NCBI GenBank assembly: GCA_024276655.1
Contig: JAJRWU010000068.1
Location: forward strand, 1-64,000
Direction of reading: 5' to 3'
DNA: 64,000 nucleotides
DNA from: Planctomycetota bacterium
GTDB taxonomy: Bacteria > Planctomycetota > Planctomycetia > Pirellulales > Pirellulaceae
Shown: positions 31,362 through 47,114 of the stretch, piece after piece
How positions within the stretch are numbered: position 1 is the first letter of the stretch
How the letters are laid out: the number at the start of each line of letters is the position of its first letter
Program-made: the position numbers and the translations under genes
Notes under the pieces: model-generated
The model's input: only the letters and a program-made list of their open reading frames with translations
The model's database searches: none
What the model was told of the DNA's origin: nothing

Positions 31362-33059
31362 ATGGACTTCTTGAATCAAACCTCTGATCAAATCAAAGAG
31401 TTGTACGCCTCGATGTCGGTCGGCGGGCGGATCACGGCTGCGATGCTGTTTGCGGTTGTGTTGTTCAGCGTGGCCTACTTGTTTCAATATCAAAGTTCCA
31501 CTCCCGATGAGTTTTTGTTGGGCGGCCGCGTGTTTTCCTCCAGCGAAATCCAGAGCATGGAAGCGGCCTTCGCCAAGTCCAGCCTCAGTTCCTACGATTA
31601 CGAAATCGTGGGCAATCGGGTAAAAGTTTCCCGTAGTTCGCGCATCGACTTCTTGGCGGCGTTAGCCGACGCCGACGCCCTGCCGCCCGGTCTTGATACG
31701 TTCATGGACAACGCCGTCGGCAAGATCAGTCCGTTTGAATCGAACGCGCAGCGCGAAGCCCGCACAAAACACGCTCATGAAAAAAGGATGTCGCAGATCA
31801 TCTCTCGCATGCACGGCGTGGAAACGGCCATCGTGACATACGACGAGCAAGACTCCGGCGGTTTTCCCCGGCAGAAGGAAAAACGCGCCTTGGCGGCCGT
31901 GTGGGCTGAAGGCAATGCCCACCTCTCGGAGCAACTCGTGCGAACGGTCCGAAATACGGTCTCCGCCGCCGAAGCGGGTTTGAAGCCGGAGCATGTCACG
32001 GTGATCGACGAAAACGCGGGGCTTTCGCATGTTGGGCTCGACAGCAACGGCATGCCGATCGCCGCCAACGACGCATACGCCATGCGCAAACGCATGTACG
32101 AGGATCGTTACCGCCAAAAAATTCTGGCCAGCCTGTCGTACATGCCGGGCGTGATTGTGGCGGTGAATGTCGAACTCAATTCTGAAGGCGTTGTGCAACG
32201 CAGTTCCACGAAATACGACAGCACGGAAACCGTCGCCATTCGAGCCCGAGACTCCAGCACCACCAAGACCTCTTCGCAGCCGGCGCCGGCGGGGCGTCCT
32301 GGCGCTGTTGCGAATGGAGTTTCCGCCAATTCCAGCGCTACGGTGAACCAAGTGGCGGGCGCGGAATCGACGACGGAACAGTCCGAGAGCGACAAAACCA
32401 CGGTTCCCTCGTACGAACAAATCATGGCTCGACCCGCAGACTTGGTTCCCAGAGAAGTCAAGACCTCGATCGCCATTCCCAAGAGTTACGCCTTGGCGGT
32501 GTGGCGGGAACAGAACCCCGCCGGCGCCGATGGCGAACCGGCGCCGGAGCCCACGCCCGATGACCTGCAAAAAATTGAAACCGACAATCGCACCAAAATC
32601 CAAGAGGCGATCGTGGCGGTCCTTCCCGAATTGCCCGCCGGCGACGACAAATATCAAAACGTGACCGTCTCGTCGTATCAAGACATCAAAACAGAGCCGC
32701 TCGAACCGCCCGGTTTTGCCGCCAACTTCATGGCCTGGCTGGGCGGCAATGTAAAAACCGTGGGGCTCTCCCTCATGGGCGTGGTCGGTTTGCTGATGCT
32801 GCGAAATATGGTGCGAAGCGCCGCCGCGGGCAGCCCCGACGTCGAGGAAGCGTCGGAGGAAAGCGAGCAGTCCGTTCGACTGGCCGAACAGACAACCACC
32901 GAAGAAGGCGAAGAACCGGCGGATTCCGAACGGGCCAGCCGACTGAAAACGAATTTTTCCGGCGGGCCCGATCTTCGCGGCGAACTTGCCGATATTGTCA
33001 AGGAAGATCCTGAAGCCGCCGCCAATGTGCTCAGAGGTTGGATCGGCGACGTCGGTTGA
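31362..33059 (+). CDS. fliF: Flagellar MS-ring protein FliF
   Basis: 565 residues. First transmembrane helix ITAAMLFAVVLFSVAYLFQY (~24-43), the ring-building motif region (VGNRVKVSRSSRIDFLAALADADALP, ARTKHAHEKRMSQIISRMHGVETAIVTYD), a long Ser/Ala-rich periplasmic insert (~295-345), second transmembrane helix TVGLSLMGVVGLLMLRNMVRS (~466-486) and an acidic C-terminal tail ending LADIVKEDPEAAANVLRGWIGDVG, the FliG-binding region. Sits directly before fliG as in most flagellar operons. Confidence 0.94.
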   Translation: MDFLNQTSDQIKELYASMSVGGRITAAMLFAVVLFSVAYLFQYQSSTPDEFLLGGRVFSSSEIQSMEAAFAKSSLSSYDYEIVGNRVKVSRSSRIDFLAALADADALPPGLDTFMDNAVGKISPFESNAQREARTKHAHEKRMSQIISRMHGVETAIVTYDEQDSGGFPRQKEKRALAAVWAEGNAHLSEQLVRTVRNTVSAAEAGLKPEHVTVIDENAGLSHVGLDSNGMPIAANDAYAMRKRMYEDRYRQKILASLSYMPGVIVAVNVELNSEGVVQRSSTKYDSTETVAIRARDSSTTKTSSQPAPAGRPGAVANGVSANSSATVNQVAGAESTTEQSESDKTTVPSYEQIMARPADLVPREVKTSIAIPKSYALAVWREQNPAGADGEPAPEPTPDDLQKIETDNRTKIQEAIVAVLPELPAGDDKYQNVTVSSYQDIKTEPLEPPGFAANFMAWLGGNVKTVGLSLMGVVGLLMLRNMVRSAAAGSPDVEEASEESEQSVRLAEQTTTEEGEEPADSERASRLKTNFSGGPDLRGELADIVKEDPEAAANVLRGWIGDVG

Positions 33060-33108: not shown

Positions 33109-34308
33109 ATGTCAAATAAAAAAAACAACGCCATGCGGAAAGTCGCCATTTTGGTCGACTCGCTCGACCGCCATACAGCCGACGCCCTACTCGACACGTT
33201 GAGCGATCAACAAGCCGCACAGGTTCGCGATGTGTTGGTCGATTTGGAGCCGATTCATGACGAAGAACGCGAGCGTATATTGAACGATTTTTTTGACGCG
33301 GGCGGGAGGCCGGCAGCGGCGGGTGACGAGGCCGCAAGCGGTGAGGCCGTTGCGCTGGAGTTGTCGTCGGCCAGCAGGGAAGCCTTGGAGCACGCGCCGA
33401 CCGCAACAACAACTCCCACAGCGAGAACGACTCCGCGGGCAAAGCCGCCTGCAACGGCGCCGCGTCTGGCGCTCGACCAAGCGCCGGTTCCCACCTTGGT
33501 GGCGTTTCTAAAGAAGGAGCATGCACAAGTGGCGGCTTTGGTGATCGCCCATTTGCCGCGACCCAAGGCGGCCCAAGTGCTGCAAGCATTTTCCTCGCAA
33601 GAGCAAGTGGAATTGGCGCGGCGCATTATTGATCTACGCGAAACCGACCCCTCGATCATTCAGGCGGTGGAAAACGCTTTGGCCGCGACGTTGGCGGAGT
33701 CGCTCGAAGAGCAGCGCCGCCGAGTATCTGGGCGATCGGTGTTGCAAGAAATTTTGTCGTCTTCGAACGGCGCCGCCAGGGATTCGCTGCTGGACAATCT
33801 GGCCCAGGAAGGCGTCTCGCTGCGAACCGTCCAACTCCCATTCACCCCAGAGCCGCCCGCCGATAAAGCGACCCACGCGCCGCCACCCACTCCAAAGCCA
33901 GAATCAGAAACCATTGCCGCCCCTGCGAGCGAAGTACAGAAAATATCGCCGCCGAGTCCTTTAAGCAGCCCGCCGGCGAGAAACACCCAGGCCGCCGACC
34001 TTCCTGAATTCGCCTTCGACGACTTGGCCAAGCTTGATAAAAAATCACTCTATCGGGTGCTGGGCGAGTCGCCGGAGTTGGCGTTGTTGGCGTTGGCCGG
34101 CGCCAGCACGGAATTAGTGGCGCACATTTCGCGAGGCTTGACCACGCGCGAAGCGAACGCCATGCGTCGTGGGATGGAGCAGTTGGGGCCGATACGGCTG
34201 CGCGACGTGGAGCGGGCGCAACTTGAAATCGCAAAACTCGTCGAGCAACTGGCGCGGCAGGGCGAAATCAAACTACCCGTTACCCAGCGTTTCGCGGCGG
34301 CGGCTTAG
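33109..34308 (+). CDS. fliG: Flagellar motor switch protein FliG (divergent)
   Basis: 399 residues, longer than the usual ~335 because of two low-complexity Pro/Ala/Thr linkers (~67-125 and ~244-290). N-domain: MRKVAILVDSLDRHTADALLDTLSD. Middle domain carries EHAQVAALVIAHLP in place of the usual EHPQ motif. C-domain: FDDLAKLDKKSLYRVLGESPELALLALAGAST...LTTREANAMRRGMEQLGPIRLRDVERAQ. Of the five charged E. coli torque residues, K264, D288 and D289 align with Ala, Arg and Gly here; R281 and R297 are kept. GGGAGA lies 8 nt before ATG 33109. Follows fliF after 49 bp. Confidence 0.9.
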   Translation: MSNKKNNAMRKVAILVDSLDRHTADALLDTLSDQQAAQVRDVLVDLEPIHDEERERILNDFFDAGGRPAAAGDEAASGEAVALELSSASREALEHAPTATTTPTARTTPRAKPPATAPRLALDQAPVPTLVAFLKKEHAQVAALVIAHLPRPKAAQVLQAFSSQEQVELARRIIDLRETDPSIIQAVENALAATLAESLEEQRRRVSGRSVLQEILSSSNGAARDSLLDNLAQEGVSLRTVQLPFTPEPPADKATHAPPPTPKPESETIAAPASEVQKISPPSPLSSPPARNTQAADLPEFAFDDLAKLDKKSLYRVLGESPELALLALAGASTELVAHISRGLTTREANAMRRGMEQLGPIRLRDVERAQLEIAKLVEQLARQGEIKLPVTQRFAAAA

Positions 34309-44667: not shown

Positions 44668-45225
44668 ATGGCAGAGAATGAGCAACCTGAAGCGGCGCCA
44701 AGTCCTGGCGGCATGAAAACACTAATAGGCATGGTAATGGCCGCGGCGTTCATGGGCGCGGTGATCGTGGTGGAATGCGCGGTGGCGTATCTGTGGTTTC
44801 CCAGCGCCGAGGAGGTGGTCGCGTTGGCCGAAAAAAAACTGGAAGAACGCCGACCAAGCTCCCAAGACCCCGTCGATCTTCTCTCGCCGGAAGGTGAAGC
44901 CGTCCCCATGACCGAGCAAGATCTGGGGAATTATAGCGTGACCGCCTTCCAACCCACCAGCAACACAACCTTGCGGATCGACTTCCATCTTTTTGGGTCG
45001 ATTATCGACGAAGACGCCGACGAATTCCAGAAACTTTTCACGCGTTCGGAGCACCGATTTCGAGAGCAAGTTATTGTTACGGTGCGCAACTCGGAAATTA
45101 CCGATCTTACCGATCCCGGGTTGGGGTTGATTAAAAGGAAGATATTGGAGAAAACTAACCGCCTGTTAGGAAAGGCGCTGCTGCAATCGGTCGTGTTTAG
45201 CGAATTTTCGTTCGTCGAGCAGTAG
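44668..45225 (+). CDS. fliL: FliL-like flagellar basal-body-associated protein
   Basis: A 185-residue protein with one transmembrane helix (GMKTLIGMVMAAAFMGAVIVVECAVAYLWFP, ~15-45) and a periplasmic domain with stomatin/FliL-like strands (LGNYSVTAFQPTSNTTLRIDFHLFG... IVTVRNSEITDLTDPGLGLIKRKILEKTNRLLGKALLQSVVFSEFSFVEQ), the last matching the FliL end that reads LxxLxVxxVxFtxFvvQ. FliL rings surround the stator and raise torque. AGGGGAG lies about 10 nt before ATG. Confidence 0.87.
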   Translation: MAENEQPEAAPSPGGMKTLIGMVMAAAFMGAVIVVECAVAYLWFPSAEEVVALAEKKLEERRPSSQDPVDLLSPEGEAVPMTEQDLGNYSVTAFQPTSNTTLRIDFHLFGSIIDEDADEFQKLFTRSEHRFREQVIVTVRNSEITDLTDPGLGLIKRKILEKTNRLLGKALLQSVVFSEFSFVEQ

Positions 45226-45347
45226 ATTTTGGAGCAGTTAATAACTTCGCGCGGCCGGAATGGCGTTTTTGCATATCGAGGATGATTGCAAGGAATCGGC
45301 GTCCGGCTGTCGGAAGCACGCAACCTGCCGCAAAGGAATGGATTCCC

Positions 45348-46055
45348 ATGGCAGACGACTCAGAACAAATTGGCCAAGACGAAATCGAAGAGCTTTTGCG
45401 CCAGGCGCAACAGGCCGCCGGTTCGTCGAAGCCGCCCGCCTCTGAAGCCGAGCCCGCCGCTGAAGCGGCGCCTGCCGAAGAGCCGGACGACAGCGGCGCT
45501 CTCGGTCAAGATGAGATCGAGGCCTTGCTCAATCAAGGCGCGGGCGGCCCTCCCAAGCCGGCGGCTGCTAGCCCGGCAGTATCTTCTCCGCCAGCGCCGC
45601 CTCCACCAGCATCTCCACCGCCGCCCCAACCAGCGCCCGCCATGGCGGGCGCCTCCGGCGAGACGCAATCGCAGGGCGATATCGAATTTCTTTTGCAGCA
45701 GGCCGAAATGGCGTTGGCCTCCGTCGACCAACCGACCGGCGAGGCGCCTCCCGGGCTGGGAGCGTTCGAACTGAAAGAGTTCGCGGGCGAACCGGCGTCG
45801 GCCGACAAAGCCACCCTCTACCTGCTCAGCGATGTTGATCTCAAGATTCGCATCGAATTGGGCCGCGCCCAGATGTACCTCAAGGATATCCTTTCGCTGC
45901 GGAAGGGGTCGGTCGTGGCGCTCGACAAACTGGCCGGCGACCCGGTCGACGTTTTTGCCAACGGGCGTTTGATCGCGCGTGGCGAAGTGCTGGTTCTCAA
46001 CGACAGTTTTTGCGTGCGTATCGCGGAGTTGGTGTGGGGCGAAGAAGCGGCGTAG
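45348..46055 (+). CDS. fliN: Flagellar switch protein FliN with three FliM-like N-terminal motifs
   Basis: 235 residues. The C-terminal SpoA/FliN domain is clear: TLYLLSDVDLKIRIELGRAQMYLKDILSLRKGSVVALDKLAGDPVDVFANGRLIARGEVLVLNDSFCVRIAELV (~157-230). The N-terminal 120 residues hold three copies of a motif like FliM's CheY-binding LSQxEIDALL: IGQDEIEELL (8-17), LGQDEIEALL (52-61) and SQGDIEFLL (108-116), joined by Pro/Ala linkers. fliM itself is missing between fliL and fliN, where it usually lies. The protein resembles FliY of Gram-positives and spirochaetes but lacks room for a CheC domain. AAAGGA lies 10 nt upstream. Confidence 0.9.
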   Translation: MADDSEQIGQDEIEELLRQAQQAAGSSKPPASEAEPAAEAAPAEEPDDSGALGQDEIEALLNQGAGGPPKPAAASPAVSSPPAPPPPASPPPPQPAPAMAGASGETQSQGDIEFLLQQAEMALASVDQPTGEAPPGLGAFELKEFAGEPASADKATLYLLSDVDLKIRIELGRAQMYLKDILSLRKGSVVALDKLAGDPVDVFANGRLIARGEVLVLNDSFCVRIAELVWGEEAA

Positions 46056-46319: not shown

Positions 46320-47114
46320 ATGCCTTCTTTGACGAGCACACTACTGTTGGCGGTCGTTATGGCGCCGCCTCATGGAGCGCCGCCACGGTTTGGCCAACGC
46401 GAAGCCGCGGTCGATTTGAGGTCGCCCACGGGGGTGGACGCCGCCGCCGGAGAATTGTTGCAACAGCAAGGGCATGTGAAACAGCGAGGGCAGGCCGAGC
46501 AAACCTCTTCTTATGGGCAACCGCCGTATCGGGAACGTCGGGCCGCCGTTTCAGTGGGAGCGCCGGTTGTCCCCAGCCGTGGCGAGGTAAGGCTACAAGG
46601 TAACGCCGGCAGCGCCGTTGCGGCAAAACGATCGGATCCCTTACCGCCGCGTTCAAAAAACGCCGCAGGGGAGTTGCAAACGCCCACGCCGACCAGAAGC
46701 AGCGCCTTCATGACGGTGGCGGCGAGTCTGAGCGTGGTGCTGGGATTATTTTTTCTTGTCGTTTGGTTCGCCCGACGCAGCGGGCGGGCGCTCCACGCGC
46801 AAATGCCGGCCGAAGTGCTGGAAGTGTTGGGAAAGTCGCCCCTCTCGGCGCGAATGCAAATGCACGTGGTGCGGTTCGGCAACAAGCTGGTGCTGCTGGC
46901 GGTGTCGGCGGAAGGCGCCGTTTCGCTGGCGGAAATTACCGAGCCGCTGGAGGTCGATCGTCTGGCGGGCGTCTGCCAGGCGAATCAGAACAACAGCATT
47001 ACCGAGTCCTTTCGACAAGTATTGGGGCGCATGGGAGAGGAACCCGCGCCGAAGGGATTTCTCGGCGCCGAAGCGAGAACGTCTACCGCTCCGGTTGCCA
47101 GTGATATTGCCTAA
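46320..47114 (+). CDS. fliO: Flagellar biosynthesis protein FliO
   Basis: 264 residues. A long Gln/Arg-rich N-terminal part (~1-130) precedes one transmembrane helix (AFMTVAASLSVVLGLFFLVVWFARRSG) and a FliO domain (AEVLEVLGKSPLSARMQMHVVRFGNKLVLLAVSAEGAVSLAEITEP) with the pattern of a hydrophobic strand pair after the membrane. It scaffolds FliP ring assembly. Next gene fliP starts 28 bp downstream. Confidence 0.85.
   Translation: MPSLTSTLLLAVVMAPPHGAPPRFGQREAAVDLRSPTGVDAAAGELLQQQGHVKQRGQAEQTSSYGQPPYRERRAAVSVGAPVVPSRGEVRLQGNAGSAVAAKRSDPLPPRSKNAAGELQTPTPTRSSAFMTVAASLSVVLGLFFLVVWFARRSGRALHAQMPAEVLEVLGKSPLSARMQMHVVRFGNKLVLLAVSAEGAVSLAEITEPLEVDRLAGVCQANQNNSITESFRQVLGRMGEEPAPKGFLGAEARTSTAPVASDIA

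Follow-up and report, generated by a model that had tools for sequence, protein, structure and literature searches.

Repeated FliM-type motifs on the N-terminal arm of a Pirellulaceae FliN: putative additional docking sites for CheY-like proteins

Reception of CheY is the textbook task of FliM, with FliY as the known exception. The window analysed here, the whole stretch of 64,000 nucleotides from a Planctomycetota bacterium of the family Pirellulaceae, contains a flagellar cluster in which fliN follows the gene at the fliL position and encodes several segments resembling the CheY-binding motif of FliM. This raised the question whether FliN replaces FliM in signalling, as had been suggested from the sequence, or receives CheY in addition to FliM.

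The fliN gene and the location of fliM

The flagellar genes of the window are arranged in the order FliF-family protein, FliG, motA, motB, fliL-position gene, fliN, fliO and fliP (Table 1). The fliL-position protein did not match any Pfam or NCBIfam model and was therefore named by gene order alone. Its homologue was located before fliN in 74 of the 80 named relatives, and 63 of them have a recognisable fliO or fliP homologue 3' of fliN. The window has no fliM between fliL and fliN, nor was one found near fliN in the 80 named relatives; the sequence-only reading had thus described the gene order correctly. The genome encodes two FliG proteins, one in the window (33109-34308, +) and one directly 3' of a cheX gene (L296:2468-3475, +; G000:C157). 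The FliG of the window cluster scored below the second one on all three FliG domains.

The protein was identified as FliN by its SpoA (FliMN_C) domain and TIGR02480 equivalog score (cut-offs 23.8 for PF01052 and 84.05 for TIGR02480), and by the position of its gene in the flagellar operon ahead of fliO and fliP, both of which lie downstream in the window. The FliM middle domain PF02154 was not matched by this protein, and the FliM model TIGR01397 gave 30.9 bits through SpoA only, against a cut-off of 219.6, so it does not qualify as FliM. Nor is it a FliY, since model NF005995 gave 102.4 bits (cut-off 218) over residues 126-231 only; a CheC/FliM-like middle domain of the FliY type is absent. 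The start listed in Table 1 (MADDSEQIGQ...) is likely the correct one, because the FliN proteins of relatives begin at a matching MADD or MSDD, and the start originally assigned at 45282 is 22 codons too early. In two relatives (L023 and L024, in G100 and G068) the listed FliN matches each span one in-frame TAA. Extraction of the open reading frames gave full-length frames for both, and the match probably overran the terminal stop codon.

A whole-genome family search detected one FliM, which is encoded elsewhere in the genome (G000:C191; PF02154, E = 2.9e-63). This protein of 342 aa scored 306.4 bits with TIGR01397 against the cut-off of 219.6. Its N-terminus is MGDEVLSQAEVESLL; it begins MGDEVLSQAEVESLLSAMD and carries its own CheY-docking motif, LSQAEVESLL. 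A neighbour of this fliM reads like a putative ProA-type reductase. Among the 149 family genomes a FliM was found in 124, and a match to the window FliN in 121 when weak SpoA-level matches are counted in. The docking motif was recognised by pattern in 28 of 30 family FliM proteins, and the remaining two have one-residue variants (LSQDEVESHL and LSQNQVESLL). In relatives assembled as a single contig the distance between fliM and fliN ranged from 21 kb (G104) up to megabases, and the genes were far apart in G096, G079, G148, G128, G019, G006, G072, G011 and G028. Since single-contig genomes show both genes well separated, an unlinked fliM is the usual state in the family. A switch in which FliN substitutes for FliM could be read from the missing fliM near fliN, in the window and in the named relatives alike, but the complete, motif-bearing FliM of the same genome and the FliM proteins of most family genomes rule it out, and we attach practically no probability to it.

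Table 1. Positions of the flagellar features in the window and the evidence for each.
Feature	Position	Strand	Evidence
FliF-family protein	at 31362		part of the window flagellar cluster
fliL-position gene, 185 aa	44668..45225	+	gene order; appearance of a single N-terminal membrane segment
fliN, 235 aa, corrected start (likely)	45348..46055	+	PF01052 77.7 bits; TIGR02480 97.7 bits; starts in relatives
FliM-type motif 1, IGQDEIEELL, residues I8-L17	45369..45398	+	conservation; predicted helix 10-24
FliM-type motif 2, LGQDEIEALL, residues L52-L61	45501..45530	+	pattern search and alignment; predicted helix 54-65
Motif-like pre-SpoA helix (motif 3), QSQGDIEFLL, residues Q107-L116	45666..45695	+	conservation; predicted helix 109-126
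SpoA (FliMN_C) domain of FliN, residues 160-229	45825..46034	+	PF01052; solved relatives 1o6a, 1yab, 8umd
fliO, next gene after fliN	46320..47114	+	PF04347 41.6 bits, cut-off 22

FliM-type motifs on the FliN arm

The CheY motif of FliM is LSQxEIDxLL (PMC5677366), and CheY-P docks on EIDALL of both FliM and FliY (PMC9126983). Motifs 1 and 2 of the window FliN conform to the FliM-type pattern Q-x-[DE]-I-[DE]-x-L-L in its N-terminal flexible segment, and the consensus of the FliN motifs, [LIV][GDSN]Q[DSN][ED]I[ED]xLL, agrees with the FliM motif. In an alignment of 40 FliN proteins, Q10, I13, E14, L16 and L17 of motif 1 were at least 90% conserved, while motif 2 has been lost or gained between relatives. 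The two motifs share an identical peptide core but are encoded by different codons, so that an origin of motif 2 by very recent duplication of the DNA of motif 1 was rejected. An exact codon-level search of the genome for the QDEIE core returned only the two FliN copies, a search that misses other spellings such as that in the motif of FliM.

The third segment is of a different kind. D111, L115, A122 and S125 in the core of this helix are invariant in the 40 relatives, and the helix was recognised by pattern in 105 of 170 non-redundant FliN proteins, only 26 of these 105 being Q-bearing. It fits the pattern in the host genus, and the version in relatives does not generally bear the glutamine. 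Of the three FliM-like segments originally proposed, two thus stand as full motifs and the third is a pre-SpoA helix fitting the pattern. This segment could be a docking motif of long standing or a helix with a structural function that matches the pattern, and it may have a role in docking.

AlphaFold2, run on the window FliN with 39 relatives, predicted helices at residues 10-24, 54-65 and 109-126 with long loops between them. The mean confidence was only 63; locally, helices 1 and 3 were predicted well (blocks of 81-89), helix 2 with moderate confidence (74) and the SpoA domain poorly. The dimeric state of SpoA in the solved relatives may account for its poor prediction.

Distribution and constraint among relatives

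The non-redundant FliN proteins comprised 35 from the nearer family, 57 from named relatives (including Blastopirellula marina, Botrimarina, Lacipirellula, Aeoliella and Thermoguttaceae), 52 from the far family and 26 sampled from the remainder of the phylum. The mean number of Q-bearing motifs per FliN was 1.71, 2.32, 0 and 0.15 in these groups, respectively; because group membership followed similarity to the window FliN, the averages cannot serve as unbiased estimates for the order. With the pre-SpoA element left out, 81 of the 170 proteins had no copy, 26 had one, 47 had two, 14 had three and two had four. As judged from these sequences, the motif array is conserved through much of Pirellulales; absence of the motifs from close relatives would have spoken against the sequence-only reading, and they are present there. 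Members of the far family have at most a Q-less form, e.g. NTDDIEALL, and yet retain FliM, which marks the array as accessory. Other families of the phylum also have FliN proteins with a single canonical motif such as MADELSQAEIDALL, so one copy is more widespread than the array. Relatives from another family of the class have repeats in which P replaces Q (LLDPSEIEKLL).

The FliN arm is compositionally biased, and the motifs could in principle be chance products of a low-complexity region rich in Ala, Pro and Glu. Shuffling of the FliN N-terminal regions with their composition preserved, however, gave an expected number of about 0.001 motifs per protein, against the observed means of 1.71-2.32. 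Purifying constraint within genera and conservation across genera likewise speak against a chance origin, which we rejected as hardly credible. Within five genera, motif residues changed in 6.4% of comparisons with no gaps and linker residues in 28.3% with 4.4% gaps, the motifs being about four times slower to change; these within-genus pairs are non-independent, and motif positions were chosen by pattern in one of the sequences of each pair. Silent changes were frequent in motifs and linkers alike (23% and 38%). The constraint is uneven among genera, and was weaker (20-23%) in two of the five (g53 and g68).

A structural role was also considered, in which the helices aid packing or assembly of FliN, FliM or FliH and resemble the CheY motif simply as capped amphipathic helices. 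The pre-SpoA helix, conserved far beyond its glutamine, and the capped, Q-less LLDPSEIEKLL helix of the other family would fit such a role. Motifs 1 and 2, on the other hand, match the FliM motif position by position, and the fast-changing linkers around the motifs together with a copy number of 0-4 fit docking peptides better than packing elements. We regard a structural role as improbable.

Putative docking array and its ligand

The chemotaxis set of the genome consists of CheA, CheW, CheR, CheD, CheY and CheX, and a CheZ was searched for and not found. The chemotaxis cluster contains a CheY-type receiver protein, CheD, a weak CheX/CheC match, CheA, CheR and CheW. CheA is present as two adjacent open reading frames of 297 and 543 aa (L295:5704-8229, -; G000:C275), which may reflect a genuinely split gene or an error of reading frame or assembly. 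Two CheY proteins are encoded on C275. Most genomes of both family groups have CheA, and no tight link between CheA and the presence of FliN motifs was seen. CheA and CheW were undetected in G040 and G021 (both 99% complete), G058 (91%) and G016 (89%); in G007 the CheA domain was absent and CheW matches were present. Despite this, FliN retains Q-bearing motifs in G040 and G016, FliN of G021 has SQEEIDAIL and that of G058 the Q-less LNTDEIEDLL, and the FliM motif is retained in G040, G058 and G016.

In these relatives CheA may have escaped detection, or else the motifs are used by other receivers, and the ligand may therefore not always be the CheY-P of chemotaxis. The motifs could dock a CheY-like receiver outside chemotaxis, for example one driven by c-di-GMP like Cle of Caulobacter, which would adjust the motor to life on surfaces. 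The same FliM motif is bound by Cle proteins (PMC5677366), and FliN or FliM motifs persist where CheA or CheW was undetected. The host genome, however, has the full chemotaxis set, and we consider this alternative unlikely.

We think it rather probable that the switch is otherwise an ordinary one of FliG, FliM and FliN, in which FliN provides additional putative sites for the docking of CheY-P or a CheY-like protein. In this mechanism fliM would have left the flagellar operon, and FliN would have an enlarged flexible N-terminal arm bearing two complete putative docking helices of the FliM type and a related third helix adjoining SpoA. The FliN helices would bind CheY-P or a CheY-like regulator in the manner of the FliM N-terminus. 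The FliM N-terminus is viewed as a tether, and the tethered CheY then binds second sites on FliM or FliN (PMC7355467; PMC9126983). Capture by FliN would in the same way raise the local concentration of CheY-P available to the sites of the second step on FliM and FliN. The basal ring contains one FliM C-domain to three FliN (PMC11087270), and with about three FliN per FliM, each with two or three helices, the C-ring would carry several-fold more tethers. Against this mechanism weigh the relatives in which CheA and CheW were undetected, the large part of the family whose FliN has no Q-bearing motif, and the weaker motif constraint in two of the five genera.

This arrangement has partial counterparts in known systems. 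FliN shares the core Q-x-E/D-I-E/D-x-L-L with the CheY motif of FliM (PMC5677366; PMC9126983), and its motif 1 is likewise N-terminal, in a predicted helix of a flexible tail. FliM, however, has one motif with S at position 2, whereas the window FliN has two full copies and a third look-alike, and position 2 of the FliN motifs is often G or D. FliY of B. subtilis (PMC8809382) belongs to the FliN type and has a CheY-docking motif at its N-terminus, as predicted for the window FliN; FliY (B. subtilis, T. maritima, H. pylori) nevertheless has a CheC/FliM-like middle domain, which the window FliN lacks, and in the latter the motif is repeated. FliN of E. coli likewise takes part in receiving CheY at the switch, through a hydrophobic patch on the SpoA dimer in place of a motif array on an arm (PMC7355467; PMC11087270). 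In Caulobacter a second FliN homologue, FssF, is needed for chemotaxis and tied to CheY-dependent switching (PMC11580411); it is an accessory protein of 103 aa, whereas in the host the main FliN bears the array and a separate SpoA protein is also present.

This second SpoA protein of about 300 aa is encoded outside the flagellar cluster (L003:557-1459, -; G000:C57). It is conserved in the family (relatives L245-L274), at full length in some genomes and almost as SpoA only in others. Its N-terminal domain did not match any solved structure or family model, the SpoA part alone being matched. It may be a further component of the C-ring.

We found no description of a FliN with an array of CheY-binding motifs in the literature covered, which contained few subscription journals. 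Tentatively, and with slightly less than even confidence, we propose that across Pirellulales the evolving array of FliN, with up to four docking helices, forms a multivalent switch with hundreds of sites for CheY-P or CheY-like proteins, compared with the few dozen on FliM, which would alter sensitivity or let several regulators share the C-ring. The array is also relevant to the two-step model, according to which the docking peptide serves solely as a tether and CheY subsequently acts on FliM or FliN. A large clade with a putative docking peptide on FliN too, in a copy number that differs between lineages and with that of FliM retained, would be a natural experiment on the number of docking sites and the sensitivity of the motor.
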